From Sphaerolaimus hirsutus (Eukaryota > Nematoda > Chromadorea > Monhysterida > Sphaerolaimidae), in NCBI GenBank assembly GCA_964036195.1, contig OZ038452.1:12208704-12272703 (forward strand): a stretch of DNA of 64,000 nucleotides. The letters are read 5' to 3'. A program made the translations under genes and the position numbers. Each line of letters begins with the position of its first letter. Within the stretch, counting starts at the first letter, position 1. The notes below the pieces were generated by a model, which searched no databases, was not told the DNA's origin, and worked only from the letters and a program-made list of their open reading frames with translations. Below are positions 32,206 to 64,000 of the stretch, piece after piece.

Positions 32206-32430
32206 CCAGTACGGTCGGTTGGAAACATTGACCACGATCATTTCATAATTTGCGTATAAACTGAACTTTTGCGTGACATTTGACACTTGATTTTGCACTT
32301 TACAGGGTGCTGACTAGCAGAGTTGCGAAAGCGTATTTACGCTTACCCGAAATACCCGGGTAAATGGGTATTTATATTTACGCTTACGCTTACGCTTTTA
32401 TAAAATACCCATACGCTTTATTACGCTTTC

Positions 32431-32630
32431 NNNNNNNNNNNNNNNNNNNNNNNNNNNNNNNNNNNNNNNNNNNNNNNNNNNNNNNNNNNNNNNNNNNNNN
32501 NNNNNNNNNNNNNNNNNNNNNNNNNNNNNNNNNNNNNNNNNNNNNNNNNNNNNNNNNNNNNNNNNNNNNNNNNNNNNNNNNNNNNNNNNNNNNNNNNNNN
32601 NNNNNNNNNNNNNNNNNNNNNNNNNNNNNN
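32431..32630. other. Assembly gap (200 N)
   Basis: An exact run of 200 N, probably a scaffolding gap of conventional size. It is flanked on the left by TACGCTTACGC repeats and on the right by a foldback element. Confidence 0.98.
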
Positions 32631-38205: not shown

Positions 38206-41200
38206 CTAATTGTCATTCCCCTTTGGTATCATCTCATCATACAGCTTAGAAAACTCGTTGTTATCCAACATCTCCACACGGCCGCGAATTATATCTGTTC
38301 CGAAAACAGTGGCCATTTGCTGCAGGCAATTTTTCGCTGCCTGTACTGTCCGTTCGGGCCCATCCAAAGTGCACCCGTGCATGACACAGGTGATTATGTC
38401 CTGCAAATGAATCTTGTTCAGAAGTGATATTTTCTCTTATGTTGTACTGTAATCGATGACAAAAATATATACCTAGCCGTCTTTTTTTCTGTAATAGACG
38501 CATCACACGGTTCGATGTCGCGACTAGGGATGGCTGAGGGTTTTTTTCAAAGGTTTAAAAATAAAAAAACGTTTTATTTTGTAAAAAAACCCGACCATCG
38601 AAACCTTTTTTTAATTAAAAAAAACCTTGGCCAAAATTTTTAGTACTAAGCACTAGGTATTTTGCATTTTTTGCGCGCAAGCGCGCAATTTCACATACCC
38701 ATTACCATTGCTGGTTGTTTTCATTGGTTTCGAGGCATTTGTAGTGTGACAGCTTCCATTTGTACTTCATGGCTAACTTCACTTGAAGTCATGATGTTCG
38801 ACAAAAGCCGATATACATAACTGTCACCTGTCTGATTTACCTGTATATGTGGACTCATGGCCATATCTGGGAACTTTTTTGAAAATTTTTTTTACTTTTT
38901 TTGGCCATCCTTAGTCGCGACAATGTTCAAGTTGAGAAAATTGATGGGATGCACATATAACCGTATTTGCTTGAATAGTTCCCCTTCGAATAATCCTCCC
39001 TGTAAGACGAGTGAGGAAATAATTATTACCCCTTGAAAAATTCCCCCCTTAAGGGATTTAATCAATTAATTGTTGAGCCCAATTTTAACACAAATGGCAC
39101 GTTATTGTGTTAATAAAGCATATTTAGTGAAATAACTCGATAGAAAGCTCGAAAATTTTGACGAAATGATACCCCCCACTCGAATAGTTCCCCCTCAAAA
39201 AGTCCCGAGGAAATAATAATCCCCCAGGGGTCTTATTCTAGAAAATACGGCAAGTTCTATCTTAGATAACATCGTGGTTAAACAGATTTTGCCCTGTTCG
39301 ACGACAACAATTTTTTGAAATTGAACGAATCTGAATTTTTGCCGGAACAGCAAAATAATTTGCACGCACCTGGAGCAACGGCTTAAAGCGCATCTTTCCA
39401 ACAGAGGTCACAGCGGCATACAGTCGTTCGCACACGGTGGTCAGCAGAACAGCGCACTCGGGCATATCGAACTGGACGCACAGCCGCAGCGCGAGAACCA
39501 TCGGCCCGGGTTTCGTGCAGCTGGCGGCGGGGCGGCCCGGCTGAGGCTGGTCGCTGCTCAGCAACCTGTCGCATAGAGGTCGCGGGCACGGCTTGTGCTG
39601 CGCAATTGAATCTAGTATGTGGAGAAAAGTGAGAGGCGGCGGTATGCCCCACACATACTACGTTGACAACGATACCAAATGTCAACTTGCTCCCATTTTA
39701 TTCAAACTTTGCTTCATGCCGGGCTACATTGCACACACCGCAATTTTTTTCCAAAACTTCAGCTCCATTATTTGCAACATGACTTAACACTTTAGCATTT
39801 GAACGTCGTTGTCGGCTCGTCGGTAATCTTTGAATTGGGATCGGAACCACTTGACAAATTTGGTGTCGTTGTCATCTACTGCGTGCATGCTCAATTTTAC
39901 GCACTGTCAGCGCTTCCAGAGTCAACAAAACGGCGCCGTGTGCTCGCCGCCATCGGCACGCCTCATCCGTGACGTCACTGCCGCTCTGGCTGCCCGGTTG
40001 AAACGGCAAATCGTGTAGGTACTGCTCCACTATTGAGACCACCTGAAATGAGCCACGCTGGTGGCCTTCATTTAAAAAAAAACAACAACCGGACAACTGT
40101 AAAAATACCGTATTTCCTCGAAATAGCCGCGGGGGGTTTATTTTTTTAAGAGTGCAAATTTTGAACAAATTAGAAACAATTGATATATCAAGTACACGAT
40201 GAACCTTATACCAGACGGGGGTATTTCGAGGGGGGTTGTTTTTTTCTCAGCTTGAAACGAACTCGGAGTATTTTGAGGGGGGTTGATTCAAGGGGGGTAT
40301 TTCGAGGAAATACGGTATCTCAAATACTTGCAAAAGGTTTATCAACATTTAGCATGTAAGTACATTACAGCTAATTACATAAACGAACTTTATCACTCGG
40401 AGCACCTTGGTGCAGCAGAGCAGTGTGCGCCAGAAACTCGGCAGCGGCGGCGCGCACTTGGTTCGTTTCGTCGCTCAAGCAGCGCACAAACACGCCGATC
40501 AAGCTGCAATCATTCACCTGCTTATTACCGCAAACATTAAACCTCGAGCAACAACGGTGAAAATTTAATTGCAGGATAGGTGGGTTCAGACGGGATTTCG
40601 ATCTCGAATCTCGATAATTTTCGGGATTTAGCGATAGATGGACTGGGAGTTTACGTGCACTCAAAGTTTCAGCCGAAATTCACAACGTTGGTGCGGCTGA
40701 CTCCACTCTTATAGAATTACCCACTCCCAAAATCTCAGCGACAAAGATTTCACGCAGTCAACCATCGTTCGGGATCTCGTGATTTCGGCCTCCGAAATTG
40801 GGTCCAGGTAGAAATCACTAAAACATCACTGTCAATGTATGTGGCATATTAAAGATGCCGATAAATTCCCGATCCTGGAAAAAATTCCAAATGACCTTTT
40901 TGCGGCGAGAAATGTGAAATATGCACCTGTTGAGAATCTGCGCGCCGCAGTTCGCGTCGAACGCCACCACGCTGAGGGCGCTGATGGCCGCGCACCGGAC
41001 GCGCCAGCTGGTCGGGTCACCGCTGGCGCTCTTCAAATCGTCGACGATCGTGGCTTGGTGAGCTGTTTAGAAAATAGTTTGGTAGAAATGAAAGAATTTT
41101 ACCGTATTTCCTCGTATTACCCCTCTCAAAATGGCCACTATGAATTTATAATCCCTCCCTCGAAATACCCCCCCCCCGTTTACCGTTTTGGGTACTTAAA

Positions 41201-44200
41201 AGCATATTCTCTACTATGAATTTCACAAAAATTTCTGACGTAATAATAACCCTCGTTTAACCCCCTTCAAAATTTGCACTATGAAACAATCACCCCGGGG
41301 GTATTTCGAGGAAATACGGTAGGCAAGTTAATATCAAAACTTATGATGGTTGTAATCATGCCATGCATGCATTAAAATTTAATATTTGTGCATTTTAACA
41401 TCGTTGTGCGACGCGTCAACCCGTCAGAAACTAGTAGACACCCAGTATGTGTGTGTGTGGCCACATACACAGGTCACACTTTACAAGATCATGGTTTCAA
41501 AGTCAAGTGTCAAATGTCATGTAAAATGTCAATCAAAATAAAAAATAAAAGATTTTATCACTGAACTTTTGGCATTTTGATATAACATTTTCATTATGCA
41601 ATAATTGAAAATCTTGGTTAAATGTATCTAAAAATTACTGCTGATTTTCAACTAATTTAATATACCGTATTCGTTTGAAAAGTTTCCCCCACTCGAAAAA
41701 TCCCCCCCTGTAAGACGAGTGAGGAAAAAATAATTCCCCCTTGAATGACCCCCCCCCCCTTAAAGGATTTGATCAATTTGTTGTACCTAATTTTAACAAA
41801 CATGACACGTTTATGTTTATAAAGCATATTTCGTAAAATGAGTTGATAGAAACATGCCTGAAAACTCTGACGAAATAATAATCCCCCCCTTGCATTATTG
41901 CCCCCTAGAATAGTCCCCCCCCCCCTCAAAAATGTCTGACGAAATAATAATCCCCCAGGGGAATTATTCAAGCATATACTGTAAACTTTAGAAGATTCAC
42001 AACCCCCCGCCCCGCAAAGGTGAATGCAGTAGTTGCACCAACATTTCAATTTCTCCGGCGGCACTTTTCGCAGTAACTCATTCATAGACACGCACGCGTT
42101 CTCACGCAGTTCTGGCAATTCACTTTTAAGGTGCCGGTTGTAAAAGTCGACCAGCCGCGGCAGCTGAGCTACGACCAAGTTCAAGCCTTGATCATTTGAT
42201 ACTACGCGCCAAGTTTCCTGCGAAATGGCCAATATTATCAACTGAAAGATAAGAAACGCGAACTACCAAAAAGAACCTGGAACATTCCCATCACAAAAAT
42301 CAAGGACAATCGACAATCTTAGCGTGCAAAAGAAATTTGCAGCGTTAAAGCAACCTGAAAAACATTGGCCAAATCGGCGCTGGTGGCTGCATATCGACTG
42401 AAACACAGCGCCGGCAACAATCTGTCCAGATTCTCAGCATGTTTCTCAGCAGGCGAATATTCGAGTAGCGACCGCGCAGCCAACGAAGAAGCAGCTCTTA
42501 TCTGAGAAAATTTTGTAGATATTTTTCAACACGCGATACGCACCAAAATTAGTTTTCCATAGTTGTTAAAACGTATTTACTTTTACTCGCAAAATACGTA
42601 TACTCGAGTTCTGGATAAATACGTTTACGTTTCCTCTAAAAAGTAACTGTACTCGCTTTTACGTATACTTTTTGAAAGTACTCGAGTGCAGAAAACGTAT
42701 TGCACATAAAAGTTTATAAAAAGACTATGTGCAATGCGTTTTCTGTATATAAACTATGCAATATATAAACTTTTAAAGGCATAGAAAGGAAACCGGGAGC
42801 AAATAGGTTATATTTATGTAGAAAAAAAGTCGCATATAAGTACGCGCAGACGCAGCAGGTGAAGTATTATACGTTTACTCATGAGTAAAAGTAAAAATTA
42901 TTTGCGTTACGTTTTCTGTACTCAGGGGTGAGTAAAAAATAAATACTTTACGTTTACGCATACTTTGAAAAACTTTTTCAAACTCTGCAGTTTTCACACA
43001 CCTGAGGCATAGGATCAACCAAGGCGGAGTCAATGATTTCCACCAAATCAGTTGCCAGCGGTTCATCATGCAGAACGGCCGCACGGCATGGAAACATGGC
43101 AGTCAGCAAGGAGAAACTGGTCTTGCGGAGAAACCAATTCAGCCCACAGATGCCCCCATCAGCGCCACTGCACACATCCAGCGTGAACCTAAGTAATATT
43201 TACGAACATTTTGCACTTCAACGACAAACCAAAAACTTCATTGTATAAATTAATCTATCTTAAATCCTTTTTGTGTGACTAATTTATTAGAAATCCTTGA
43301 ATAAGTCCCCACTTGAATAACCCCATCACTTGAGTACTCCCCCCCTGTTGACGAAGTGAAGTGAAATAACTCCCTCAATTGAATAACTTCCCAGTGATTG
43401 GGAAAGCGCCAGGAAAAATGGCGCCATCCATACAAAATGGCACCAGGTGCCAGAGATAATGCTCCACGGCGTCTTTTGAAATATGGCACCAGGCGCCAGA
43501 GACAATGGCCCCACGCAAAGTAAGCGAATGACGCCAATGCCGTTGGCGCCAGCGCCTCTGCGCTACTCCCGCTCAAAAAGCTCTGACAAAAAACACCCTG
43601 CCCAGGGAATTTACATTGAATTAGAAAATTTCCAGAACGAACGAACCGCACGAGTCGCTGGTCGACCACGTGAGCAAAGGCGGCGGGATCGCATTCTGCG
43701 CACGCCTGCGCCGCTGACATGCAACAGTCGCAATGGTGCCTCGCGTTGGCATCCTCCGCACCTGAAAGCGCACCAATTGTAAAATAACTATAAGTTGTTG
43801 TGGCTGTGCCAGAGGGGAGAACTATCGGTGCATATGTAAACTCCCAGTATTTGTAAACTCTCAGTGCATGTAAATTCGTTGAATCCACGCACCCTATGCA
43901 CGGGTCCGCAATGGGGGATTGGATTTATTTGTTATTCACCTAGTTGATTTTTATAAGTGATGTCGATATTTAGTGCGGCCAATTTTTGACACTTTTAATG
44001 TTTTTGGCGGGGGCGGGGGGTTGAGTCTTTCAGTTTACAGTAGAATATTATTCTCTAGGAATTTTTTAGCTGATTTCCAATGTTACGACATCCACGGGAC
44101 AAAATTTGTTTCCATTTAGTATTTGAAATTAAAAATAACAAAATTCAGCAGTCGTCATTTTTGACATTGCAACACATCAAAAGAATTTCTTTGAGAAGAG

Positions 44201-45456: not shown

Positions 45457-45667
45457 GCTGATGGCTTCATCAGTTGCGAGGTTTGGAAACACTACTAAAT
45501 ATTCATCATCGACTTTATCAGAATGTAGGGGAGGCGGCCATGCCTGTGGATTGGACACACTTGTCCGGACCAACGCAACATTACAGTGCCATCAGTGGGG
45601 CGTTGCTGTGATGTAGAACGAATGCGCTGCAGCCCCGGCCAGCCAAAATATGACAATCAGTGGGCCG

Positions 45668-45888
45668 GTGCCGGTTCCGCAAGTGGAAAAGTTAAGAGTA
45701 AAGAGTTGAGTAAAATGATATATGATAGGTTCAGAGTAAAGTTAAAAGTTAAGAGTTGAGTAAAACCATTTGTCATTTTACTCAATTCTTAACTCTTAAC
45801 TTTACTCGTAACTTGTCATTTGTCATTTTACTCAACTCTTAACTTTTAACTCTTAACTTTTCCACTTGCGGAACTGGCCCGTGTGCCA
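45668..45888. mobile_element. Short relative of the 31437-32205 element
   Basis: GCCGGTTCCGCAAGTGGAAAA ... TTTTCCACTTGCGGAACTGGC, with TTAAGAGTTGAGTAAAA repeats between. It lies between gene B and gene A copy 2. Confidence 0.65.
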
Positions 45889-46484
45889 CTACCAGTGAAA
45901 AGCGAATGGCAGGCATCTTTGCGCGACACATAGAGACGAAAAGATCATTGGACACGCGCATCTAGTAAGTAACGCAGTAACGCAAAACCAAGTAACGCAA
46001 ATTAGTTCATTGACACTGAGTGCATAGTCATAATTTTTCCGCCAAACTTTATTCGTGAATTACAGTGGGGGTCGACACAATGTGTTTGTCATTGTTCATT
46101 CATTTGACCTCTTTATTTATATTCATTAATTATGTAATCAAAATACACTCCCTATATAGCAAATAGACGGAAAAAGTATTGCACGCAAAACTGGAGACAA
46201 ATCTTGAAGGTACCTACCAATCTGGAAAGTGTAAGGCAAGCTTTGTTACACTAACACGCTGCCGGGCCGCTCCAAACTTTTAAATTCTTAATTGCTGAGA
46301 GGACCACTTTATGCTTAGGCCACCTCCGATCACATCATAAAAACATCACCACGTACCCCACTGATGGCACTGCATAGTTGTACTTGGGTAACCATAGATA
46401 GAAAAAATGCATCACATTAACAGCACGCTACACACAGCAAACGTTTCTTTCTAAAAATCAAAAGTAACCCCACATTAATACAGC

Positions 46485-49400
46485 TCATTTAGTATCAATC
46501 CATCTGGACAATTTTTGTGACGCCCGCGCGACACATTCCAGAGACCCAGCGGCCAAATTCTCATCCCTCCGAGTACGCGTATAGTTAACTCTGCTGCGCG
46601 CGCGGCGGTCAGTGCACATCGACTCGGACGCCAGCGACAGCAGAGCACTTGGCTCGATGCCAAATTGTCGGGCCACCTGCGGTCAAAACGGGATATTTTA
46701 TGTTTGTTGTGACAGTTGAAGTACATAATATCAGTGATAGATAGCTGAAAAAATTCTGGGGTGGTGGGTTGTGGTGGTTGGGTAATGAGGGGTGAGGGTT
46801 AGGGGGTTGGGTCTAATATTTAGGCTTTTGTGTCTTCATCTTGACGATCTTTAAAAAGTAACAAATGGACAATTGACAAAAGCCAGTAAATAACAGCGTC
46901 CACTGCAGGGGTCTCGAATGGGGGGGGGGGTTGGGGGGGGTTACCCCCCCCCCCCCAAACCGCCCAGCTATCTATCTATCCCGGAGGCCGCTCAGCTATC
47001 TATCTATCCCGGAGGCAAAATTTTGGGCTACTACCCCCTAAACCCCCCCCCCCCAAATCGCCCAGCTATCTACCTATCTGGAGCGAGTTTATACCTATAT
47101 ATATAGATTTTCACCTCAAAAATCACTGGTTCATGCGTCTAACTGCCTATTTTCAGCTATTTTAAGTACTATATGCTCTTGTATACCCATTTTGAGCTAT
47201 TTTACACCTACTTTTAGCGATTTTTCTCCCTTTTCTTCCTTCTATGCCCCGGAAAAGCCTATATATCGAACCAACACAACCCCCCCCCAACCCCCCCCCC
47301 CAGAAAATTTTTCGGCTATCTATCCCTCCGGAGGAGCGATTTGCTATCTATCCAACCACTCGGAGGGTCAAAATTCAAGATACCCCTGGTCCACTGACAA
47401 TTTTCAGTTTTTATATGCGTTTGGCACAATTCCAGCAGTTTTTGACCCTCCTATTGGATACCTTCTATTTATTATGTGGACCAAATAAACTCTAAAGTAT
47501 ACCTTCCTAACAATGTCGGACCCATGTTTGTCAACCGCACACGAAAACAAACCTTCTCAACCATCTTAGGCGCCATGGCAACCTTGTGAGCCCGTTGAGC
47601 ATCGTGCCCCGAGGCGACTAGCGCATTCCTGAACATGTCCAACTCGCGCTGGGCCAACTGCTCCAGCGAGAACCACTTGCAGGCGGAGCTGTGCGGGTTG
47701 CCCGCGCGGTCGCAGTACACCTCGCCGGTGCGGTCCAGCGCGTAGAATGTCACCGATTTGCAGGTGCATCTGCGAATCAGCGCTCGGGTGCACCTTCGAT
47801 TTACATCTGTTATATGTAAACACCTTCCCGGTCACGTCCGGCACCCATTTTTTGATTTTACTTCTCACATCCTATCCCCAGTTCTAGGGGGGCTAGACTC
47901 GCTGTGCATTTTTACCCGCTGTGCATGGTTACCCGGCGTGCATTTTTCGCTGCCCGGTGTGCATTGTTGCCCGGTGTGCATGGAGGGGCGGCCGCCATGC
48001 ACACCGGGCAACAATGCACACCGGGCAGCGAAAAATGCACGCCGGGTAACCATGCACAGCGGGTAAAAATGCACAGCGGCACAGGCTCGTTCTAGGGCAC
48101 CCCAGAGGCTGAAACTTGGGGGAGATATTGGCGCAACCCCCCTCTACTTCGCATGAATTGGGGGGATCGCTGCGACCCCTCTCAGGGTGGGTCGCCCTAA
48201 GTGCAAAAAATTTTTTTGGCTTTTTTGGTGTCCCACAGCAGGTCCGGCACCCGCTGATTTCTGAGCTGTGGGAGGAGTATAAATCTAAAAATTTGGGGAT
48301 GTGTTACATACACCACTCCCCTACTGTACACTATTCAAAAATGTGAGATTTATGTGAAAAATTTCTCAAAAATTCGCTTATTCTCTAAAAAAACACCACT
48401 CCCCAATAGATGGATGACAAAAAATTAACTTTTTGGAACTTTTTTATTAGACACTTGAAGAGATGGTTTACAATACTTTAACGGGAAGGGTTTGATGTTT
48501 CAAGTTACGTAAAGAACCATACCTCTAAAATGCCTGCATTGCAAAATTTACTTGGGGGGAATTTCAAAGTGTAAATTTTGTAAATTTTTGTTCCTGCAAT
48601 GATGTCATTATGATGTCATAAAATTCGCCCTAAGTAAATTTTGTAATGCAGGCATTTTAGAGGTATGGTTCTTTACAAAACTTTAAACATCAAACCGTTC
48701 CCTTTAAAGTATCGTAAACCATCTCTTCAAGTGTCTAATAAAAAAGTTCCAAAAAGTGATTTTTTTTGTCATCCATCTATTGGGGAGTGGTGTTTTTTTA
48801 GAGAATAAGCGAATTTTTGAGAAATTTTTCACATTTATTTCACATTATTGAATAGTGTATAGTAGGGGAGTGGTGTCCAAAAATCTCCAAAATTTTAGAT
48901 TTATACCCCTCCCACAGCTCAGAAATCAGCGGGTGCCGGACCTGCTGTGGGACACCAAAAAAGCCGAAAAAATGTTTGCACTTAGGGCGACCCATGCTGA
49001 GAGGGGTCGCCGCGACCCCCCAAATTCGTGCGAAGTAGAGGGGGGTTGCGCCAATATCTCCCCCAAGTTTCAGCCTCTGGGGTGCCCTAGAACTGGGGAT
49101 AGGATGTGAGAAGTAAAATCAAAAAATGGGTGCCGGACGTGACCGGGAAGGTGTTTATAAAATTGAGCACTTACAAGCACGCGTAGTTTGGGCAAACCCT
49201 GACTCCCATTGGAGTTTGTAAAAATATTTAAATAGCTGAAGAAAGCAATGGTAGGTAGGGCGGGCACTTGATTTTTAAAACTCGATTTCAAATGGGTCAG
49301 TAGGAATGGCGCGAGGCGACAACATTGGAACATTTCAATTCCACAGCATTTAGAGGAAATTTTTTTACCTTCCAAAAATATACAGGACCAATGGTGTCGC

Positions 49401-52400
49401 TGGGCGACCCTTACGCCCTCGCTGAAAACAACTGGAGATTTGGAAAAATCCAATGAAAGTGAAAATTGGAAAATTGAAGCAATCGATCGGTGGTTCTTCG
49501 GGTCAAAGCGGGTCCGAGTGGACCGCATGCTTTGCACAGAATGTTGCCATATTTTCAAGTGGCCACAAGAAACACATTATAAATATAAACACAAACACAA
49601 GTAAATATGTATATACTCGGTGGACCACAAAGTATGCACAGATTCCTACCATAATTTAATGAATAAAATTGTTTGTTAAATTTCGTAATAATTCCATAGT
49701 AAAAACAAAATATTATGATGATATACTGTAAAATTTTTGGTTGATCATTCAGGTGGGTTATGGTAGGTTTCCATACAAAGTGTGATGTCCGCCGTAGCAT
49801 ACGGGGTGGGAAGAGGCAGGTCCAAAATTAATGTTGTTATCTTTATAGTTCACGTTTGACGGTTCAATTGATGGATGATGATTACCCCCCCGCCCTCCAG
49901 CCATTTTATTTCTACAATTTATTTTTCAAAACCTTTTAATTTGTGGTTGGCGATTATTATACCATTAAGGATGCATTTTTTAACGACCCCATTATTTTCG
50001 AGAAAAAAAAACTTTGTGAATCTCCTAAATATGGTCATGAGTAGGGTTGGCAAGCGATTTTTTTTAAGCGATTTTTGAAAAAAAATTTCGATTTAAAAAA
50101 AAAAAATCGCAGGACCCGTACCGATTTAAAAAAAAAATCGCTGGCTAAAAATTTTGGTACTCGAGCACTAGGTAAAATGTAAAAATTTTGCGCGCAAGCG
50201 CGCACTTTCATGCAAACAATCCATCAGTTACTTTTTTCATTGCTTTTACAATCAATTTGGGGGTGTAGTACGCATTTATGTGTGCTTTTAAGTGTGTAAG
50301 GTAGGCTGTAAATCATTTTAGGAAGTATTCATGCTTTGTGATGCTTTGTGTTGTCACATCAAACATTTATGCAAATGCATCCATGTTTACTTCCAATATG
50401 ATTTAGTTTGTTCTGAGCAAGAACATGCTATTTCTGCAAACAAAATTGCAAATGGTCGATGAAATGTGATCCCGTCACAAATATAACAATTTCATTACTT
50501 TAACACTTAAAAATAACTGACTTTCAAGCTTTTCCAAAGCTCTACAGTACTTATATTAGCACAGAAGGCATAAGTGTGCACTTTCTATCAGTTTATATGG
50601 CTTTTATTACCCCCAGAGGTGATTTTAGACAGAAATGGGGCTAATTTTGACCCCAGCGATTTTTATTTAAAAAATAGATTTTTTTTTAAAAAATCGAATT
50701 TTTTTATAAAAAAATCGGGGTCGTTAAAAAAAATCGATTTTTTTCCAACCATAGTCATGAGTTATTACTTTGTGCGGATATTTGTACCAAATGTACAAGC
50801 CTCGCAGCGTTTAACCCGGTGTTCACAGTCATCCAAATGTTTGTAGAAATACAAGTCAAGTTGGAATACGAACTCTGACCCAACCGCGAAAGTGTCTTTT
50901 ATAGAATTCGAATATCAACAACCTAAGAATCGCATCATTCGTTTTTTTACGGGAACATCAATTTCAGCAAAACGCTTTTTAAACGATCATGCAAAATCAT
51001 AACAAAATCATCCCCGATAAATCAAGCGTGTCAATCGAAAACAAGAACAAACTTGAGTCGTTTGAACAAGTCCCCCTGCCGGCCGTTCTGAACTGCCCAA
51101 ACAAATCTCGGCCGGGAGTAGTCGGTCTCGATGGCGAACGCGCACCCAGCTCGCTGCGTGGTCAGGTTACGCACCACGCGCCTGCAAGCGCACGAATTGG
51201 GTTGGCATTGATTTTTTTGATTTTTTTAAAAATCTGATTTTAATTTTTTTAAATCAATTTAAAAAATATATTTGATTTTAAAAAATCAAGGCGTTTAAAA
51301 AAATTGATTTTTTTCCAACCCTACGCACGACGATATAACAAACTGTCAACGTCTACAGCGGGAACAACTAGCAGGGATTGCGCGAGTTTCTTTTACGCAG
51401 TGCAGTGCGTTTTGATTGTGAAATGGGCAAATTTAGAAATGTATGGACATTTGTCATTCGACAAGTGAAGAGAGCATCACACACAAGTGCTTAAATAATG
51501 AAAACTGCTGTCAAGCCAGCTAACATTGTAGACGGGAGCTTGAACATCTGTCTGAACCTGTTGCCGCTGCGCAGCAAGTGCGTCGCCGCAGCAGCGTCGC
51601 TATCCGCTTCAGCGGCGGCGCCCGTTTCAGACTGTGACCCGCAGAAGTCGTCGGTGACATTGACAGCCAGAGGCGATGAGCTGCTCGGTGTGGCGAACTG
51701 AGCTCCCGACGCTTGGGCAACTGCATCGACACACGTGGAAACCGGGATCTGCTGGGGAACGGATAGATCAACGAACGAGCTATAAAAGATGTAAAATAGC
51801 TCTGGTGAATTTTTGATCGTTACCCATTTTTCAGACAAACTTCTCCGCATAGTTATTATAGGAGCGCTTCGGGATGAAAATGAAGTAAATCATCATCAAA
51901 ATGGGCATTCTCGAACCATCCATAAACTTTTAACACCAGCAGTAATAGGTTGAGTGGGAAAGAGGCACTACCGACGACAGCAAAGAAAACCAACAAACTG
52001 GCGCATCGTACACTGTAATTTTGCGTTCAGCGTTTGAACCTTTTTGCACGCTGAACTAAATACAAACGCTGAAATCAAAATCTTAAGAACACGACGTTTT
52101 TGAAGTGTAAAAATTCTGAATTTGTAATATTTCACACAATGCGAGTCGCATTTTTTACCCTTCAAAAAGATGGTGTTCGTTGGATATTGATTTCAGCGTT
52201 TGTTGTTCAGCGTGCGAAAACGTTCGAACGCTGAAAGCGAAATTTCAGTGTGCGGTGCGTTAATGATTTTGAAAGCAAAACACCTCGGGCGATGCACAGA
52301 AATCCTCTCGGCACGCCGGATCAAAACCACTGGAAACGACCACATCCTGTAACGATGCTAGAAATTAGCAAACACAACTCGACTTGAATCAACAAAAAAG

Positions 52401-55400
52401 CAACGAACCCGCTTGCCACCACCCTGGTCGTCCACGGGCGCGGCACACACGCCTCTGGCGGCGGCGAGAAGGTCGCCGGTGGCCGCGGCGCCGAGCGCCG
52501 CCACCGAGTGCAGCCGCGCCGACAACCTGTCCAGGCGGCGGGCGAGCGCCAGCCAGTGAGCGTCGGCGCGCCGCCGCCCGTCGCTCAGCGAAGCGTAGCA
52601 GTGGCGCGACTCGGCCGCGCACTCGGTGGACATGTCGCCCACGGCGTCGTGCGCCCACTGCACCGCCTGGTTGAGTATGGTTAAGTTTAGTAAGTTAAGC
52701 ACAGCGTGCATGCGCTATGTGGATATGTTGCAACCGGTCAAAAGTGACAATAGGGTTGACAATCATGGTCCGGATCAGGAATATTGTCGGCATCGGGATT
52801 GGTGTTTTTATTTCAGGGAACCGCGATTGGTGTCTCGAACCAGGAGATATGTGATTACATTTAACGGGATTTCAATAAGCAATTTGACCCTACCTCTTAC
52901 TTGGGCAAATGATCCCATTAAAACCAGACTACACGCAGACTCTACGACTTCACCAAAACGTACTGTGACGGCTGCTGTCAAAGCCTCCATGTTACCGCAA
53001 CCGGGGCCGTTCACCTAAAATGGCAACATCATATAAATCAAAGAATAGCTGAAGATCAGTGTAAAAAGGCTTCGACATAAAACAATAAAAAAGTTTAAGT
53101 TCAGTTTCAGTGCAAGTAGACAAGTCAAGAATAAGGATGGTTAAAAATCATTTTTTTAGCTGGCCGATCTTTTACGAATTAACCGGCCACACAAATCAAC
53201 TTTTCCTTTAATAACCAACGTTCGTGTTATTGCAATGGTCATAGCGTTTAAAAAAATGCGTGATTGTCAGAAAAATTTAACTAGGTACCTAAATAAAACA
53301 TCCGGAAATCCCTCAAAACAAAACATACCGTATTTCCTTGAAATACCCCGAGGGGTTTTTTTCAGAGTGGAAATTTTGAGGGGGAATTCCGAGGGGGTAT
53401 GTCGAGGGGGGGCTTATTCGAGGGGGGGGGGGGTTATTATTTCCTCAGAAATTTTCAGAAATTCAAAGTAAATAGTATGGTTTTAAATATGAACCCAAAA
53501 CTGGTATTAAACATGTCCAAGTAGGGTATATTCGGACATATCAACGTGCATCGCTACACAAACTAGTATATGTGTAGCTGCGATGAAAACTGCGACAAAT
53601 ATATACATCATGTACACTGCATACATGATGTACATCATTTCAGACGGGGCTATTTCGAGGGGGGGTATCTTTCCCAAGCTGAAAAACACCTGGGGGTATT
53701 TCAAGGGGGGGTTAAGTCAAGGGAGGGGGTATTTCGAGGAAATAAGGTCATTAAGTCTCTCTAAAAATACAGTGAAAATGTAAATAATAATGAATTTTTT
53801 CTCAAAAAAATCTAATGAAGTCCCTCCGGAAAAACCTGGAGGAATATAAATAAATATAAGATTTAGTTATATTTTCCTATATTTAAAAAAACACCGTATT
53901 ACCACAAATTACCCCCCCCCCAAAAAAAAATATATATGCCGGTGAAATAATAAAACCCCCACGAAAGACCCCCCGTCCGGAATGATGTAAAAACATCATG
54001 TATGCAATGTACATGATGTATTTACTACTGCTAATTTGCATCGCAGCTGCACATAGACTAGTTTGTGTAGCTATCCACGTTTTTCTGTCCAAATATATCC
54101 TGTTTGGACACATTTATTACCTGTTTTGGGTACGCAACTGCCCACTATTTACGACGATCCTTACGAAAATTTTTGACGAAATAATACAACCTTCGAATTA
54201 ACCCCTCATTTTGCTGGCGAAATGAGAAACCCCTCCCTGGGGGTATTTCACGGTAACCTTTTGAGATTTTTGGACCGCAGTATACTCTACAGTAATTATA
54301 TGACCACCTTCCATCTACATAAATATATACCGCTCAGATATGATTTCGAATAAATAAAAAAAGGTTTTTATTTTTAAAAAATCGATCAAAAAATCGATCC
54401 AAAAGATTTTCGACCAAGCCCACTCCACACCGACCTCGGCGTCCATGCCGCACCGCTCGACCGTGGTCTCGACGAGGCGGCGCAGCGTGGCGGGCGCGAT
54501 GCCAGTGATGCGGGAGGCGGCGCGCGCGCTCACCCGCGACAGGCGCACGGCGCGCGGACACGCCCACTGGCTCGCCACCGACCACAGCTGAGGAGACGGC
54601 ATGGCTCAGTTACATAAATGTAAATCGGTTGGGCCGTTTTTTGCGAGCACCTTTATTAAAAGGAAAATACTTCAGGTGACACTGGGGTTCTAACGGGATC
54701 CTGATTCCGCACCCGGGATTTTTTTTCCTTTTTGCACTTAGAAATATCTACAGAAACATACAGTGGAACATTTTAAGCCATTTCTCCTGGCATCCAATAT
54801 GTTTTTGAACTTTTTTTTGTGGAAAATGATAAATCAGAGAAAAACCATCTATACCAGAACTTTGGGCAAGATCTCGATCCCGGAACCTGGATCCCGGCAC
54901 AATCCCGATCACGAAATCTCAATAAACCAATCCCGATCCCGGCACGGAGACCCCAATCCCGGCCCCGAAAACACGAAAAGTCAATCCCGTTTGAACAATA
55001 GGTGACACTTGAGAGCGGGATGGACACAAATGTGGAACCATTGCCGACCTGTTGATCGGACACTCGACCATCAGCTCGTTGCCGAAACGCTCGGAACAAC
55101 TGCAATTTGAGCAGCTCGCGTTCACGTTTGTCCATTTTTGGCACCAACACGGCACCTTTTGTCCCCGCCGAATTTCCCTCGCTACTAAATCGCCGCGAAC
55201 ATCGCTCAGACTGCAAATGGGTTACTTGCATTTTGTCGGAACACTAGTTTTGATTCCGCATTCGAACCGTTTTTTAGTCCAGAATGTGGAAATGGGATTC
55301 AAAAGCATCGTAATTTTTGGAATATAGCGACACGCATCAAGAAAATATTAAATTTTTTTGTCGCCCTTCACACAATTCGCAACTGTGCACACTGTGGAGG

Positions 55401-58400
55401 ACGCTCACAAAAAAAAACACAACGAACAGCGTAGCGTCGAAGTTTCAGTTCATTCTCAGCTGGCGCCAACCGAATGTGGTTGACTGGCGCAGGACATCTC
55501 CATTTGGAACTCTTTCTGTGTTTTTGACCATAGGACATCACGCCCGCAGTCGAAGAGAGCACGCAACTGGACATCTGCATCAATGGATAGGAACGATCAA
55601 AGTGGTTGTAATTGGGGCTGGCAAGAGCTTTTTTTGAGGCCCAGAGTAGAACAAAGTTTTCACTGTTGGCCGGAATAACTAGTCTTTTGGACTACATATC
55701 TTACAACATAAAAATTCATGCACAGAATGTCAATTTGCCGAATTATCTGATGAATAAATTCTTAAAAACATTTAGGAGGCACGATTTTTTTTATAAAACT
55801 GACATCCGAGGTGCTATTTTTACGAAATTGAAACGTACGTGTCCCTGTTGCTGGGGCCGCATCGCTGGGAACTGCTGCAAATGGAGCCCATCATCGTTCG
55901 GCCTGTAGTAGGATATCAACGCGAAGCAGACCTCGTCATATCGAGCGCCGATGCACCAGTTGCAGATGTACACCAACTTGGTGAACGACCCTGAAATTAC
56001 ATGACACTCGACAACTCCAATGGCACTCCAATTTACCAAGAGGTCTTTTTCTATGAAGTGGATTTGTGTGCGATAACAACCCAGTAACTAGTAACTTATT
56101 TTTAATTTTTTTGCCAAGGCATGATGACCGCAAATATGTAGTATTTACATATCACGGGTAGACCAAAATGGGGAGGTCAACTATGCGCTCCACTATGCTG
56201 GAACGATATATCGACGATCGAATATCGAATGTTTTTCCTGTTGAATATCGATATCGAGTGTCCATATCGATATTGAACGGAGTTTCAAAAATAATAATAT
56301 CGATATCGAAAAGTCATATCGTCCCAACCCGATCCTCACTCAACAAACAGACAATTCCAAAACACAACTCACCAATCTGAGAATTCCTGAACGCGAGTAG
56401 CTGAAACCGCCAATCGCCATCGTCCCAATTTCTCTGCTCCTGCACCAGCCAAGTGCCATGGGCGTCCAAGCACAAATCCCAGTTGGGCGGCGCCGAGGCC
56501 ACGTTCACGAGGAACATGCACTGAGTCCGACCCATGGGCAGACCTGAAGGCACCTGGAAGGTAAGAATGGCTAAGTGTCAAGTTGCATGTCAACTCAAAA
56601 TAATGCCGTAGATTTCGGTCTATGGTAGAAAGGTGATTTTCAAAACGCTTTTTTAAAACAGCACACTGTTATACAAGCAACTTTTTGAAAAACAAGAAAG
56701 TTTTTCAGGTATATCTAGGGTTGGAAAAAAAACGTTTTTTTTTTAACTCGATGTTTTTTTTTAAAAGCTCCCAGATATGACCTAGTGTCAACATATATAG
56801 GTATATCAGGCACTGGCAATACTCTGTGATGTTAAATATGACCATATAATGGCTGTGGAGCCATGGGATAGCATTATAAGTAGTGATTTGTGTCAAAAAT
56901 ATCCATTTTTCGTCGACATATCGTTTGTATATCGCCTTATAGTCGAATGTTCGTGACTTCAGGTAAAGTTTGGCACAGAATGGTGATCAAACAAGGTTAT
57001 AAAAGGAGGTTGTTACTTTGGGAGTGAAGTTACACACTGTGGAGGTACATGGAAGCACATTACCTCAATATTATATATTACAGCAACATATGTCGGCTTA
57101 TTCACCCATGGTAGCACATAGAAATGGATGTTTTGATACTAAAAATGCAACAAAACCAATGAAAACAACCACCAATGTCAATTTGCGTGTGAAATTGCGC
57201 GCATGCGCGCAAAAATTTTGCAAAATACCTAGTGCTTAGTACTAAAAATTTTGGCCGATGTTTTTTTTAAAAAAAAAAACATTTCGGACGTCATGTTTTT
57301 TAAAAAAAAAAAACGTTTTTTTTTTTAAAAAAACGTTTTAAAAAAAACATCGGCCAACCCTAGGTATATCTTTCAGAGGGTCAAAATTTGCTAATTACCC
57401 AACCCATACGAGGGTCAAAATTCAATATATACTCGGCGGACATCACACTTAGTATGAAAACCTACCATAATCTATCTCACAAATGAACAAAAAATACAGT
57501 TTTTTCATCAAAAATATAATGTTTTTACTATGGAATAATACTATAGCATTAATTGCTAGAAAAATACTAGGTGTGCTGTCCGCCGAGTATACCCATAGTT
57601 CAAAGCGAAATGATTCAGTTGCGAAACCAGTGCAACTACCTACAAAGTTCAAAACCAGGAAGTAAGCGAACATGACACAAACCGATGGGGACAAACAAGG
57701 CGGTGGAGATTTGGCCGCTTGCTTGATCATGTCCGTAGCCCTATCTTCGGAGGGATGACCCTCCGGCTGCGCGCCGTCGACATCGATGAGCGCATGTACC
57801 TGAGAGAAGCGCACACAAACTCGGCACAAACACGAAAAAAACATTTAAGTAGTGATTGAAAAAACCTTTTTCAAGGACCAGGTTTTTAAAAACAACACGT
57901 TTTTTTAAAAAGCTGCCAGGTATGGGTCTACATGTACATGTATATCAGACAAATGACAGTAATTTATGATGATATAAACGGCTATAGAATAACGCGGTTC
58001 GATGTGTTTTTACTAAAATTTTGGCTGACATTTTTTTCGAAAAATACGCCTGATTAAAAAACATTTTAAAAAGATGGTTAAAAATACCAGCTATCCCTAG
58101 TTGTGTGTACGTTAAATTGCGCACTCGCAAGCACGAATTTCAAATTACCGCTAGTGCTCGAATTAGATAGGTGTCCTTTGTTTTTTTAAACAAAAATGTT
58201 GTTGTTTTTAAAAACAGAGGTATCGAAACCGTTTTTTTTAACATCAGCCAAAAAAATTTGTACTATGCACTAGGTATTTTGCAATTTTTTACACTTCAAT
58301 TTCACATTACCATGAGTGGTTCTTTTCATTGGTTTTGAGGCATTTTTTAGTGTGAAATCTTACATTTGTTCATGCTATTGTGTAATAATAAGCCGTGATA

Positions 58401-61400
58401 TGTTACTGTAGTGTAAAATATCCAGCCAATGTGCTCCCACATACTTCTACAGTGTGAAACATCACTGTCAATCACCTTATTTAAGCACTATTCCATGCAA
58501 ACCTTAACTTGAAATCATGAATATTTGACAAAAGGTGATAGTCAGCAAATGGATATTTTTGACAGAAATCACCACTTATAATGCTATCTCACGGCTCCAT
58601 AGTTTTTTATGGCTATATATAACATCACAAAGTACTGGCAATCTATACTGTATATGTTGACCCACAACCATATTTGGGAGCTTTTGAAAAACATGTTTAA
58701 AAATGTTGTTTTAAACAGGGTCATTAAAAACATATTTTGGCCATCCCTAGCTCGATACATACAAAATACATACAATACAAAAATACAAAATACAAAGAAT
58801 ACAAAAAAAATTTGGATGAGATTAAAAAAGTTTTCAAACCTTGAAAAAAACCAGTCACCCCTACACAGCAGCAAACATATTTTATCTAAACTTCGACGCA
58901 CCGAATCCAAAGCGACGGCCGGCGGCGACTGCGCGCAATCAGCAGCACTCACAGGCGGCTGAACTGCATCAGATTCCCCGCCGCTGCACAGGGCCGATGC
59001 AGACGGCGGCCGATCGAACGCCATCCCGCATACGACTCGATGGGGCAGCGAGAAGCAACGGTCATCAGCGAGAGCGAGCACAGCGTCGCACGGCTCTGCG
59101 CCGTCCACGTCTATATCCGCGTCGCTGTCCAGCAGGTCGGTCATGTCGCTTTAGTAAATATGTATCCGGTTGAAGCGCGCGGTAAGCCTGAAAACGAGAT
59201 GTATGGTAATTTTCAACGGTATTGTTTATGAATACAGGAAATGCCGCTAAACACACTTAGCAGCAGCAGAGATGAAAAATTAAAGTAGAGAAAATTAGAG
59301 ATAACTCTTTAACGACCAGACTTCTACAAATAAAAACACTGCGATAAAAACCGCCGACTCAGTAGTCAAAGAAAAAAAATTTAATTCAAAACAAACATAC
59401 TTAAACAACAGCTAGGCAAACAAACCGGCAAGTGGAAGAGCACCTGGCGATACCGCTGGCGTTCCAGCTGGAAACGTGCCAAACACTCGGTCGACTGACG
59501 GGCACGCCAGCACGCAGATGCGAATGCTTTAAAATCGTGCGAATGCTCAAATAACACATGAAACTCATGAAAAATAACCAAAATTGAGTATAACACCTGC
59601 TCGAAAAACATCCCCATTTTGGTAAGCATCCTTAAAGTAAGTGCAAAGTATCCTTAAAAATACAAAATACAGATAGATTTGAGCGAGAATTTTTGTCACA
59701 GTTACTGATTAACATAGATTGGGAAATTCGATGCTTGATGACAGACTAATCTAAGAATGCCTTGTTTTTTTATGAAAATTGATACTAAAAAGTCAAATAC
59801 GCCCCCCCCCCCGAACTTATCAGAGAGGTTAGCCTATAACGGTACTGATTTCTCAGCTGCACCCCAGACAGTTGAGCCAATTTGGACAGTACTTAGGGTT
59901 TATCTAATAAAGAGTAAAAATCACACGATGTCGAAGGGTTCAAACTGCCGGTAAAAGTCTGCCTAACATGCGACGAGAGTACCCGTATGACAAATTGGCA
60001 GACGGCCAAAATTTCGAAATCGCTACAAGTAAAGGCTAAAAATGTGTATATAACAATGTATATGATTAAAATAACGATTCTGAAGGTGAAAATAAAACAA
60101 AATTGGCAAATTGAGCAATTTTTCTTCAATTTATCACTCTAAAATACTTAAGAGTTCTAAATAAAATACGCAACCGATAAGTTGGGCGTGGGGCCAACTT
60201 GTCATACAAGACCCGACCCCGTTTTACCGATGCTTACCGACCGCAACGTCAAGCGACAAAAAGCAAGCAAAATGTGCACGGGACATTTTAATTTGTCAAG
60301 CATGAAAAGCGGACCTAAAGAGCCTTCATTTATGAGCATGAGAAACGAGTGCACCGAGGTGGCTGATAAAGAAATGCCGGCGCATCTTTCTTTTTAAGAG
60401 TATTAACAAGATCAGGATACACTAAAAATAGCTCCAACTAGCTAAATAGCTGGGCGATTTGAGGGGGCGGGGGGGGAGGCGTCCAGGGGACAATGACCAA
60501 AAACTTGGTCCGATATCGATAGCTGAGCAGCCCCTGGAGTAGATAGATAGCTGGGTGATTTGAGAATACCATCATTCGAGATACTCCGTGGCGCTAGCAT
60601 AAACGCCAATTGCGTGGCAGTTATATACGGCGCCATTCCGTCGCTGTGTAAACTAAATTGCAGGGGCCACTCAAATATGCCATTATGGCATAAGGGCATT
60701 GTGGCTTATGGCCCTCAAAAACGACGTAAAAATTAAAACCTTTTACTCAAAAATTCAAATCTTGTTTAAACTGAGGATTCCAACGACATACAACTAGGTG
60801 TCGATAATGGTTTTCTTAAAGATTTTCTGTCACATTCGAATACCAAAATTGATAGTGTATCGCTCGCTAACCAACGCCTCAATATATCGTCGGAATCCAA
60901 GCAAACATTGGCCGTACACATTAGTTGACACAACGAAACCAAATATCAACTGGTTCCGATCCCAATTCAAAGCTTGCAGACGATTAACACTGCACACAGC
61001 AAACATTTTTCCACTGCACACAGCAAACATTTTTCCAACACTTCAGCTTTTTTCGCAACATGATTTAACACTTGATCGTTCGTTCGTCGGCTTGATAGCA
61101 TTGAATTTGGGATTGGAACCACTTGACACTTGGGGTCGCTGTCATCTAAATAACCGCCGTCGACAGAAAACAAACAGGAGAGGCTTGCGTTGTGGGCAAT
61201 ACCGTAAATATTCGTAAATACCGTATTTACTCGAATGGCCCCCTCTACTTCCTCCAGTTAATAGCATGTCAGTGTTTATAAAGCATATTTTGTGGAATGA
61301 CTTGATAGAAACATGATTGAAAATTTAGACCAAAAATACCCCCCCCCCCTCTCAAAAAGTTTGACGAAAAATGATTCCCGGAGGAATTATTCGAGTGAAT

Positions 61401-63632
61401 ACGGAATGTTAAAACGAGCAGGAACCAGACTTCAACAATGTTCCTGCCTTTAACTGGATAAGGTAATATTCGATCAAATATATATATTGCGAAAACTACT
61501 ACAGCGCCGCATGGAAAATACTACATGTCAGGTTGGCAGTGTAAGAAATAGATATTCAAAAAATGATACCCGAGAAAATTTTTTTAAATATTTTACCTGA
61601 AATTGACATAAACACGAACGAAAGTCGGGGCTGGAGTCGGGGCTGGAATGGAGCGATACCCATCGCTTGGTTCACCATTGGCATAAATATCAATTAAGCG
61701 CGATACACAAGATCACAAGGAAAGAGACTGACTAGGGATGGCCAGCGCTTTTTTTCAAGCGCTTTTTTTTAAAAAAACGCCGCTTTTTTTTAAAAAAAGC
61801 GCAAGGGTCCCAGCACTTTTTTAAAAAAAAGAGCGCTGGCAAAAAATTTCAGTACTTATGCACTAGGTATTTTCCAATTTTTCGCGCGCAAGCGCGCGAT
61901 TTCACATGCACATTAGCATTGGTGGTTGTTTTCATCGGTTTTGTGGCATTTTTAGTTCAATTGCTTCTATTCCTGTATGCTATCATGTAATAATAAGTAG
62001 TGATATGTTAGTGTAGCATAGAATTTCCAGCCAATGTCCTACCACATACTTCTACAGTGTAAAACATTACTCTCAATGTATTAGCCTTCTCTTAAAGCCG
62101 TATTTATAAGCACTATTTCATGCCTCACTTCACTTTAAGTCGCGAAACATTCACAAAGGGCGATATACATAATGAGTCAAAATTAAAAGTTTTTTTTATT
62201 GTCAGAAATCGCCACTTATAATGCTATCCTATGGCTACACAGCCATTCTATGGCTATATATCATCACAAGTACTGCCACTTGTCTGATATACCTGTATAT
62301 ATTGATGCAGAACCATATTTGGGAGCTTTTTAGTGAACGTCCCGACATTTTTTGAAAAACAGCGAAAAAAGCGCGTTTTTTTTAAAAAAGCGCTTTTTTT
62401 AAAAAAAAGCGGGGCCGTTAAAAAAAGCGCTTTTTTCCATCCCTAAGACTGACACAACACAAACATGTATTTTTTTCCTCAAATTTGGTTAAAAAACGAG
62501 AATGATAAATTGAATGGCAATTGAAATACAAATGTATTTGGCAATTGAAATACAGAAACAACGAGAAATCCGCCGAAAACACGACGTAAACAACGAGAAA
62601 TCCGCAGAAAACACGACGTGATGGTGATAAGTTAAATTAGCAGACGCATGCGAATCGTGAGAACGACCACAAATTTCTTCAAAAATTACCGTGTGAGGGT
62701 AAAGTGCCAGTGTACGGGTTTACAATAAATTATTTAAACACATCATTAGTGTTCGGCAGATTTTGAACATTCGAATAAAACCTTACGATAAATAGGTTGC
62801 GGACCCAGGGTGTAACAAATAGGCGGACTGATGGCGATTCGAACGATGCAGCTTATTGATAATAGATTTCGAAAATATCAAATATGGACAACAAAATAAT
62901 TGATCATATTTCGAGATTTGAACGAAAATGTCGAAAAAATGTCGAAAAATATCGAATATCGATAGACAAGTAATATTGCTGCACCCAGAGTCTATCAAAG
63001 CTAGAAATGAGTAATCTACGAAATTAATAAAATTCAATAGCTAGCTACAATCACACAAACCAGCTCGCGGGAAAGAAACGAACAAAACGGTTTAAAAAAA
63101 TCGACAATCAAAGAAGAGACAATCAAGAAAAAGCGAACCAGCGGCACGGCATGGTAGCAGCAGCTTTGGCGCGGTGCCAGAACGCGGCACCCGCACATCG
63201 CAGACGAGTGCCAGAAGGCGGCACTCGCGATCACGCCCCGCACGCTAGACTGAAATGAATCGTTACAATACGTCAGGGCCCACGGCTTGCTTCATTGCCA
63301 GTTGAGGCGTCCAATTCTAAAAGTCCAAAATATGAAAATTTCGAGTTAGGCCCGGAAACATCATCTGGGGCTACTTCCGCACATTTTTCATGATTTTCCA
63401 TTAAATTTTTTGACCTCACATGTCCATATGGCATAGTGCCAAATTTGACATTTTGGGTAAAATGCAAAAATTTGGGCAAGAAGTCTGAAGGGTCTGAAAC
63501 TCAAAATGCGATTCACTCAAAATCGCATTTTGTGGACTTTTAGAATTAGACGCCTCAGTTGCCTTCTAGGGCCGGTGAGAGTGGCAGAGTTTACCGCCCG
63601 CAACGTATCGCAACAGTGGAAAAGTTGCCGTA
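46485..63632 (-). CDS. Gene A copy 2: same unrecognised gene with 3' end; 5' exons frame-damaged
   Basis: Exons matching copy 1: 63595-63632, 59401-59563, 58953-59148, 57683-57799, 56373-56553, 55839-55990, 55471-55566, 55049-55210, 54435-54587, 52901-53014, 52451-52666, 51525-51751, 51053-51181, 49369-49421, 47553-47769, 46485-46676. The last exon reads VARQFGIEPSALLSLASESM and ends in TGA at 46485-46487, giving about 733 residues from the ATG at 59144. From that ATG onward every exon keeps the phase of copy 1. Several exons are identical (47553-47769 at the nucleotide level, 52451-52666 in protein) or differ silently (49369-49421). Upstream the match breaks: the 12-residue exon at 63595-63632 is 2 nt longer, and the exon ending at 59148 lacks 10 nt, so a product continuous with the 5' exons would be out of frame. 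Copy 2 may start at 59144, be a damaged duplicate, or be a variant allele. Confidence 0.7.
46906..47388. mobile_element. hAT-like MITE, CAGGGGTCTC family, copy 2 only
   Basis: CAGGGGTCTC ... GATACCCCTG with an exact 8-bp duplication GTCCACTG. Copy 1 (about 335-345) has the single uninterrupted site. CTATCTATCCCGGAGG-type repeats and C runs fill the body. Confidence 0.9.
47819..49155. mobile_element. TA-target foldback element with AACACCTTCCCGGTC ends, copy 2 only
   Basis: Long inverted repeats start AACACCTTCCCGGTCACGTC and end GACGTGACCGGGAAGGTGTT, flanked by TA; copy 1 lacks it (about 765). It is palindromic almost throughout, with its centre near 48590. A 200-bp element (47889-48088) is nested near the left end. 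Confidence 0.88.
47889..48088. mobile_element. 200-bp hAT-like element that is one perfect hairpin
   Basis: An 8-bp duplication GTTCTAGG flanks it. Positions 47900-47983 and 47995-48078 are exact reverse complements (84 nt) around an 11-nt loop. The arms consist of GTGCATnnTnnCCCGG-type units. Confidence 0.8.
50042..50753. mobile_element. Variable-terminus hAT-like MITE (CGATTT motif), copy 2 only
   Basis: TAGGGTTGG ... CCAACCATA, 8-bp duplication GTCATGAG; empty site in copy 1 near 1500. The core has GAGCACTAGGTA and GCGCGCAAGCGCGC. The subterminal motif CGATTTTTT is repeated at both ends. Confidence 0.88.
56716..57362. mobile_element. Variable-terminus hAT-like MITE (ACGTTT/ATGTTT motif), copy 2 only
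   Basis: TAGGGTTGG ... CCAACCCTA, 8-bp duplication GGTATATC; empty site in copy 1 near 10997. The core is in inverse orientation (ACCTAGTGCTTAGTACT, GCGCGCATGCGCGC). Confidence 0.88.
57880..58750. mobile_element. Older variable-terminus MITE (both copies; 12120-12552 in copy 1)
   Basis: Internal ATGCACTAGGTATTTTGCAA and the end GGCCATCCCTAG place it in the same family. Its subterminal motif is GTTTTTAAAAAC. The copy 1 version is shorter by an internal deletion. It predates the duplication. Confidence 0.6.
61733..62445. mobile_element. Variable-terminus hAT-like MITE (GCGCTTT motif), copy 2 only
   Basis: TAGGGATGG ... CCATCCCTA, 8-bp duplication AGACTGAC; the copy 1 site near 15285 lacks the element. 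The core has GCACTAGGTATTTTCC and CGCGCGCAAGCGCGCG. GCGCTTTTTTT is repeated at both ends. Confidence 0.88.
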
Positions 63633-64000
63633 CTGGCTCGATTTGTCGGTACGAAAACGTCGCTAGCAAATACATTGCACCAGTGCGAATTCAATCGGGA
63701 TAGCAGGGTACCGTGGTGAACATACCAGCCACATTTAATACATTCCCACTGCCCACAAGTCGGCCAATGTTCGCTCAAGATCGCTAATTTTCATAGCTTT
63801 TTGCTCACTTTCATGTACAAAATCACTAGTCATATTTACACATACTTTATTTAGCTAATTTGAATTTTTTGTCATTTTAATCTACATTTGGGGATTTCCC
63901 GGGATTTCCCTCTCGCCTTCTGGAAACCAACGCGAAACCAGCCCCGCAACAATTTACAACAATATAAGAGCCTGTGCCTCTCCGAATGTAAACCCGCCCC

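Follow-up and report, generated by a model that had tools for sequence, protein, structure and literature searches.

Can a transposon family keep its tips while the motif repeated through both of its ends is exchanged as a set? The question was raised by four short elements in a 64,000-nt stretch of the Sphaerolaimus hirsutus genome (contig OZ038452.1, positions 12,208,704–12,272,703; the window, numbered from its first nucleotide). The original prediction had placed them in a single MITE family with TAGGGWTGG tips and with a motif that differed between copies and was matched at both ends of each. The coordinates of all four were right: elements A (50042–50753, + strand), B (61733–62445, +), C (56716–57362, − strand) and D (38525–38913, +) were each bounded by a perfect 8-bp target duplication, GTCATGAG, AGACTGAC, GGTATATC and GTCGCGAC, respectively. 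The letters adjoining the T or A runs were CGA in A, CGC or GCG in B, ATG or ACG in C and GGG or AGG in D, and the elements represent the classes CGA, CGC/GCGC, ATG/ACG and AGG/GGG, respectively. Many of the motif sites were palindromic and near-identical. The uniformity within a class was imperfect, with ATG at some sites of C and ACG at others, and with CTC, CAC or ACA at some class B sites. Element D is internally deleted (389 bp), and its motif was seen at the left end only. Since the GG motif was absent from its right end, which was scored '?', the predicted matching of both ends held within the window for three of the four elements (A, B and C).

The predicted shared core was recovered far above chance. 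Six places in the window matched the core 14-mer with at most two mismatches (0.5 expected), and none of 100 shuffles gave as many. The exact 14-mer was found at five places, three of them within the four named elements. A GC palindrome gave ten matches, corresponding to five places on both strands (0.2 expected), and four of the five places were inside the named elements; element C carries GCGCGCATGCGCGC at this palindrome. In element A, the core 14-mer reads GCACTAGGTAAAAT. As determined with BLAST, only approximately 80 bp of core were common to A and the others, and A shared 58–64% identity with the others across approximately 140 aligned bp. Element A is a distant family member, with shared tips, scaffold and the 80-bp core, and the objection that the core is too weak for one family applies in part to this element.

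The window also contained a diverged segmental duplication (1–16914 versus 46564–63973, approximately 75–98% identity by block). At the positions paralogous to elements A (1380–1560), B (15240–15330) and C (10960–11040), the sequence was uninterrupted and contained a single target copy, which was one base off for two of the three elements. Because of these empty sites, the three insertions most likely postdate the duplication. A long open frame on one side of the duplication contained seven 102-bp units (11283–11994, 99% matching), and the paralogous frame at 57449–57844 seems to hold one such unit.

Further members were present in the window. Element E (58164–58749, +) was of a TG-type class and had the same core (14-mer at 58267), with flanks GCTCGAAT and GCTCGATA that differed by two mismatches. 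Its internally deleted paralog (12374–12548, +; core 14-mer at 12460) had a perfect TSD, GCTCGAAT. The short element F (51197–51323, +; flanks CGCACGAA/CGCACGAC, one mismatch) was of a TGA class and lacked the core; its paralog was located in the duplicated region (1935–2060, +). The TGA class does occur with the core, at three loci of the assembly (L038, L060 and L090). Ends of the pattern TAGGGTTGGCA are those of the A and F classes.

Elements with other tips were found as well, all on the + strand. The element at 7348–7937, of the TAGGGTTCAAACG family and the CGGGAT class, had a perfect TSD (GTTAAAAG) and contained the word ATCCCG 18 and 19 times in its two ends. A left end of a CAGAGTTG-family element of the GC class (32318–32430) was cut by an assembly gap (32431–32630). 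The TAGGGTGTCAA-family element at 25284–25861 had TTTCCG arrays, both tips and flanks GTTGTGGG/GTGGTGTG with two mismatches. Two elements of the TAGTGATGG family and the GGCGCC class, at 29134–29972 and 36157–37199, had perfect TSDs (AACCTGCC and ATCATGAC, respectively). Additionally, a fold-back of approximately 770 bp (31435–32207), in which either end holds AGTTAAAAGTTGA-like arrays, is possibly a similar element.

Across the 348.5-Mb assembly, the exact core pattern occurred at 3,420 places and its backwards control at none. The first 70 of 100 matches listed on contig C1 were taken in position order, without choosing by motif. An element with both ends (tips, and duplications with at most one mismatch) was obtained at 56 of these 70 loci, and the left and right motif classes were equal in 55 of the 56: 51 elements were ATG/ACG at both ends, the commonest class in this sample, three were TGA and one was CGC. 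The remaining element, L031, had a left end scored as D and a right end scored as E. The right end of class D was either unmatched (element D) or ambiguous (L031). In a wider set, composed of this core sample, copies fetched by similarity to element B and the window copies (core, tips, TSD with at most one mismatch), the ends agreed in 84 of 86 rows, of which 24 CGC rows had come via the similarity to B; because two rows repeat another sequence, the agreement among distinct sequences was 82/84. TSDs in this set, preselected for at most one mismatch, were perfect in 83 rows and had one mismatch in three. Sixteen of 98 loci failed the strict tip and TSD limits and stand outside the agreement counts. 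Fourteen of these belong to the 70-locus sample, and six of the 14 had no right tip. The other eight had a poor TSD or none; three of them had the same class on both sides (C in L032 and L072, B in L092), and five had one side uncalled (L030, L046, L047, L064 and L065). Independent variation of the left and right motifs, which the original prediction had named as a possible refutation, was not found in the motif-blind core sample.

The traits of a MITE were present: the copies were short (273–1385 bp in the 86 rows, mostly near 700 bp), non-coding, high-copy and homogeneous. In the search with element B, 40 of 5,244 candidates were scored; all were near-full length, and the window copy was among them. 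On one small contig, the copies L016 and L017 (C82:26791–27565 and 5451–6225) were identical to each other and had a common target duplication (TCAGGTTT), which reflects either a duplication or an assembly effect.

Six motif classes aligned on a common tip and scaffold, and an end pattern with GGTG/ACCG looks like a seventh. In the comparison of A with B, all six flagged motif positions of the left end and six of the seven of the right end differed, compared with 20/108 and 6/78 of the other positions, respectively; because class labels and motif positions were set from the same sequences that were scored, such scaffold contrasts are descriptive. Both elements carried their own class motif at six of the 12 differing flagged positions. 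The first and second left motifs also covaried among the 100 matches listed of the 294 TAGGGATGGC ends (1.07 bits versus a shuffled mean of 0.43; none of 5,000 shuffles as high), with GTG and CG paired in 32 and AGG and GG in 23. The original description was supported as regards one tip family with several motif classes, matched left and right on a recognisable scaffold; the motif was changed at most sites.

The property was wider than originally reported and extends beyond a single family of this genome. In the fetched loci and the window, motif arrays were recognised in four additional tip families (TAGGGTTCAAACG, CAGAGTTG, TAGGGTGTCAA and TAGTGATG). Judged from their sequences, wholesale motif change appears clearly in two of them, TAGGGTTCAAACG and CAGAGTTG, and tentatively in TAGGGTGTCAA and TAGTGATG. 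The TAGGGTTCAAACG classes CGGGAT, CGATAT and CGGGAC shared a common scaffold, and the motif adjoining the tip was changed as well; the number of array units varied among copies. The TAGGGTTCAAACG end pattern occurred at 1,202 places in the assembly, a count that is no class census because the pattern fits the CGGGAC spacing best. The CAGAGTTG family comprised AAACGT (AC), AAGCGT (GC) and AAGTGT (GT) classes. In the TAGGGTGTCAA family, TTTCCG elements were accompanied by a single GTACGG element whose tip differed (TAGGGTGGCAGA), and in the TAGTGATG family, GGCGCC elements by one GGTGCC element, so that the second class of either family is represented by a single element. In a word-spectrum test across the five tip families, the left end picked its own class among the right ends in 36 of 37 elements, a set that had been sorted into classes beforehand and in which five classes had a single element. 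For the TAGGGWTGG family, with one of 14 elements misassigned, left–right word similarities overlapped, reaching 0.65 between classes and falling to 0.28 within them. T runs were considered as the cause of the switching and are disfavoured, since TAGGGTTCAAACG and CAGAGTTG switch without them.

The CAGAGTTG family gave the closest view of the difference between classes. Elements L102 (AC) and L104 (GC) aligned through both ends, with 141–152 bp matching at each end (84–85% identity) and interiors that did not match. At eight aligned sites of one end and at seven of the opposite end, each element carried its own class base, all of them one-base differences, compared with differences at 16/154 and 30/171 of the other aligned positions; the difference at the sites is built into the site definition. 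Most of the unique spacers between the sites were kept. The ratios of AC-type to GC-type words per end were 8:0 and 6:1 in L102 and 2:8 and 0:7 in L104, with one AC-type site kept in L104 and one GC-type word in L102 as exceptions. With looser flagging, the comparison of an L102 end with the L119 flank gave eight changed and nine unchanged positions. The CAGAGTTG end pattern occurred at 3,322 places in the assembly. Among the 100 matches listed of these, the two arms of the first palindrome agreed in 93 (39 AC, 32 GC and 22 GT), whereas 10,000 shuffles gave a mean of 33.2 and a maximum of 50. AC/GC hybrid ends numbered 11 among all 3,322 (eight GC/AC and three AC/GC), again in disagreement with independent left and right motifs. 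GT/GC hybrids were not rare (two of the 100 matches listed).

A hAT identity, as proposed in the original prediction, was supported for three of the sister families. The hAT dimerisation domain (PF05699) was detected at 28 places in the assembly. At 12 of these, the exon was located between motif arrays, with tips and an 8-bp duplication with at most one mismatch; one of the 12 elements belonged to the TAGGGTTCAAACG family, two to CAGAGTTG and nine to TAGGGTGTCAA. Because a transposase exon lies inside these array-bounded elements, the three families belong to hAT. A hAT origin of the TAGGGWTGG and TAGTGATG families is argued from tips, arrays and 8-bp duplications, which point to that superfamily: short terminal inverted repeats and several subterminal repeats are present, as in hAT elements. 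Searches with three of the hAT exons gave no match to an element of the TAGGGWTGG family. The zf-BED domain was detected at eight places, none of which coincided with the 28 PF05699 places, and the profile searches of the assembly recovered no autonomous element with a DNA-binding domain for any motif class. Six of the eight zf-BED matches were located within approximately 22 kb (C1:7466186–7488779), possibly a tandem gene cluster. Tandem copies with hAT exons, separated by less than 4 kb, were also found (L107 and L108; L114 and L115 on contig C626).

We propose, with a probability of roughly 60%, that these are hAT-type elements in which arrays of putative transposase-binding sites were rewritten as a set, probably tracking a changed transposase specificity. 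On this reading, the elements are non-autonomous hAT-type transposons. Each end consists of a tip of 8–12 bp followed by a spaced scaffold of 100–200 bp with approximately 5–20 copies of one motif. From class to class, in three tip families, the tips and the spacing are recognisable and the motif is changed at most sites of both ends; each class is a subfamily amplified on its own. The motif would be the binding site of the N-terminal DNA-binding domain of the transposase, and each class would answer to a transposase with altered specificity. Replacement may have proceeded mostly via successive selected point substitutions at separate sites as the preference of the transposase drifted, possibly helped by short-tract copying between look-alike sites. 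Successive point changes fit better than long conversion tracts because one base per site was changed and most spacers were kept. Since the copies within a subfamily are not independent, the agreement of left and right ends is partly descent, and the number of independent switches is about ten rather than thousands.

The likeliest of the competing accounts, though still an unlikely one, is neutral concerted evolution, in which gene conversion over short tracts or template switching homogenises the sites within fold-back DNA without a role for the transposase. The palindromic and near-identical nature of many sites would suit such a process, as would a duplicated unit in L044. The ATG/ACG copies provide a further argument, with 96.4% identity in the interior and 93.6% overall (50 of 53 copies; 600–730 bp kept): the ends of this class seem to change faster than the interior, although the alignment of run lengths adds noise. 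The CGC copies showed no such acceleration, with a mean pairwise identity of 95.7% overall and 95.8% in the interior (n = 27, two repeats included). Neutral homogenisation also sits poorly with the AC and GC ends, which differ by one base per site while spacers were mostly kept, since longer tracts would move the spacers, and with the same change in TAGGGTTCAAACG and CAGAGTTG without long T runs at each site. An alternative that we consider quite improbable is that the arrays are unrelated and acquired their tips and core through recombination, in the manner of Galileo, with no site-by-site change. Galileo copies that pair one subfamily's ends with another's core have been described, at least in the portion of the account consulted (PMC3573991), and in L031, the second D-class copy, ends of the D type and the first part of the core are joined to a different interior. 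The limited common portion of the CAGAGTTG AC and GC elements would likewise suit chimeras. Scaffold and motif nevertheless alternate every few bases between A and B, between AC and GC and among the three TAGGGTTCAAACG classes, which would need many exchanges; the aligned class pairs have no single breakpoint between kept and replaced blocks, and AC/GC hybrids were, as noted, rare (11/3,322).

Very improbable is the separate building of each array, with a fresh expansion from a motif near the tip in every class, and with constraint rather than descent behind the common spacing. The variable unit number of TAGGGTTCAAACG would accord with it, and it could hold for TAGGGTGTCAA and TAGTGATG, whose second class is one element each. 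It does not account for unique spacer words common to several classes (such as AACGnCCC and TTACCCGAAATACC), and the CAGAGTTG ends suggest a spacer identity above that demanded by transposase geometry. Mutational decay, in which CpG deamination or a similar process altered the sites of old copies alike, has the lowest probability that we assign. Some class pairs do differ by C to T (e.g. GC and GT in CAGAGTTG), and the GT/GC hybrids (2/100 of the CAGAGTTG matches listed) point in the same direction. CpG was however not depleted (observed/expected ratio of 1.05 in the window and 0.99 in the transposase loci), the differences among CGA and CGC, AGG, and GGAT, GGAC and ATAT are not all deaminations, and the B and C copies were homogeneous.

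The rewriting of arrays in step with the transposase is in line with what is known of hAT proteins. According to the parts consulted of a study on hAT-19-type proteins, their DNA-binding domains prefer CGG, CGC, GCGC or AT-rich motifs; the preference can vary among close paralogs, and for four hAT proteins the motifs have matches in subterminal regions (PMC8097297). The classes found here (CGC, CGA, ACG, AGG, CGGGAT, CGGGAC, TTTCCG, GGCGCC and the AT-rich CGATAT) span a similar range. The consulted portion of that work treats the protein side only, without motif replacement within a transposon family (PMC8097297). The excerpts available on two other hAT elements describe a Herves transposase that binds the short subterminal repeat CG/AATTCAT (PMC3143072) and, for Hermes, transposase-bound subterminal repeats with a quasi-palindromic pair (PMC10368747); in these excerpts there is one motif per element type, not a motif that varies by class.

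The statement in the original prediction that no described family has this property was too strong, given a partial precedent in the CMITEs of Acropora corals. As far as the consulted part of their description extends (PMC2872659), CMITEs are MITEs with a conserved core and terminal repeats that differ by family yet match on the left and right; this matching applies to families I–III, three of the six, and the matching repeats are shorter in families IV–VI. CMITEs are of the piggyBac type with TTAA duplications, whereas the present elements have 8-bp duplications and nearly constant tips. In CMITEs, the terminal repeat of 13–14 bp itself differs; here, the tips stay and approximately 5–20 internal sites per end change, and an array of sites is not mentioned in the part of the CMITE description consulted (PMC2872659). 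The Galileo subfamilies (P superfamily) are also similar, with a common tip of approximately 40 bp and family-specific long ends that contain several transposase-binding sites (PMC3573991, PMC3688188, each in part). Their binding is largely private: for the DNA-binding domain of the G subfamily, binding to K is weak and binding to N is absent (PMC3688188, in part). Chimeric copies were reported in 12 of 170 cases, and the consulted parts of these accounts do not describe a collinear scaffold carrying one swapped motif (PMC3573991, PMC3688188). Galileo and Foldback duplications are 7 bp, compared with 8 bp in the present elements. Bacterial REP sequences resemble the arrays as palindromic repeats treated together with a tyrosine transposase, and differ in being bacterial and having no hAT-like ends (PMC2817692, in part). 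Our searches of the open-access literature gave no account of a motif that is exchanged throughout both ends while tips and scaffold stay constant, or of a genome in which several families switch motifs.

The joint change in specificity of a DNA-binding protein and its many target sites is an old open question. In a more far-reaching version of our proposal, the DNA-binding domain shifts its specificity and at least ten sites of each element change with it, and this happened repeatedly in three or more tip families (perhaps in five). The outcome would be mobilisation systems that are private to one another although they have tips and catalytic machinery in common; we regard this version as tentative, with odds slightly below even. 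If it is true, the motif class would be a species barrier between transposon lineages, and each pair of classes would be a natural record of protein–DNA coevolution. The coexistence of hAT families with the same tips in one genome, without cross-mobilisation, could be accounted for as well. In this one genome there are several tip families, the motif classes number from two to six or more in each of them, and individual end patterns or cores occur at more than 1,000 places; the order of site changes, the tolerated hybrids and the recognition residues could be read directly from such material. A practical caution is that a single MITE family can be broken up into many when its members are clustered by end sequence.

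Three other features of the window were observed. An open frame of 432 amino acids (26188–27486, −) resembled a 7TM receptor; its scores against both 7TM profiles were under the curated cut-offs (PF00001, E = 1.4e-6, 28.4 bits versus a cut-off of 30.5; PF10328, 0.0039). Such a frame is in keeping with an animal genome. A 96% palindrome, made of TGCACACCGGGCAA-like repeats, was located at 47900–48078. A longer palindrome of approximately 660 bp (9205–9868) was 87% identical with its own reverse complement.
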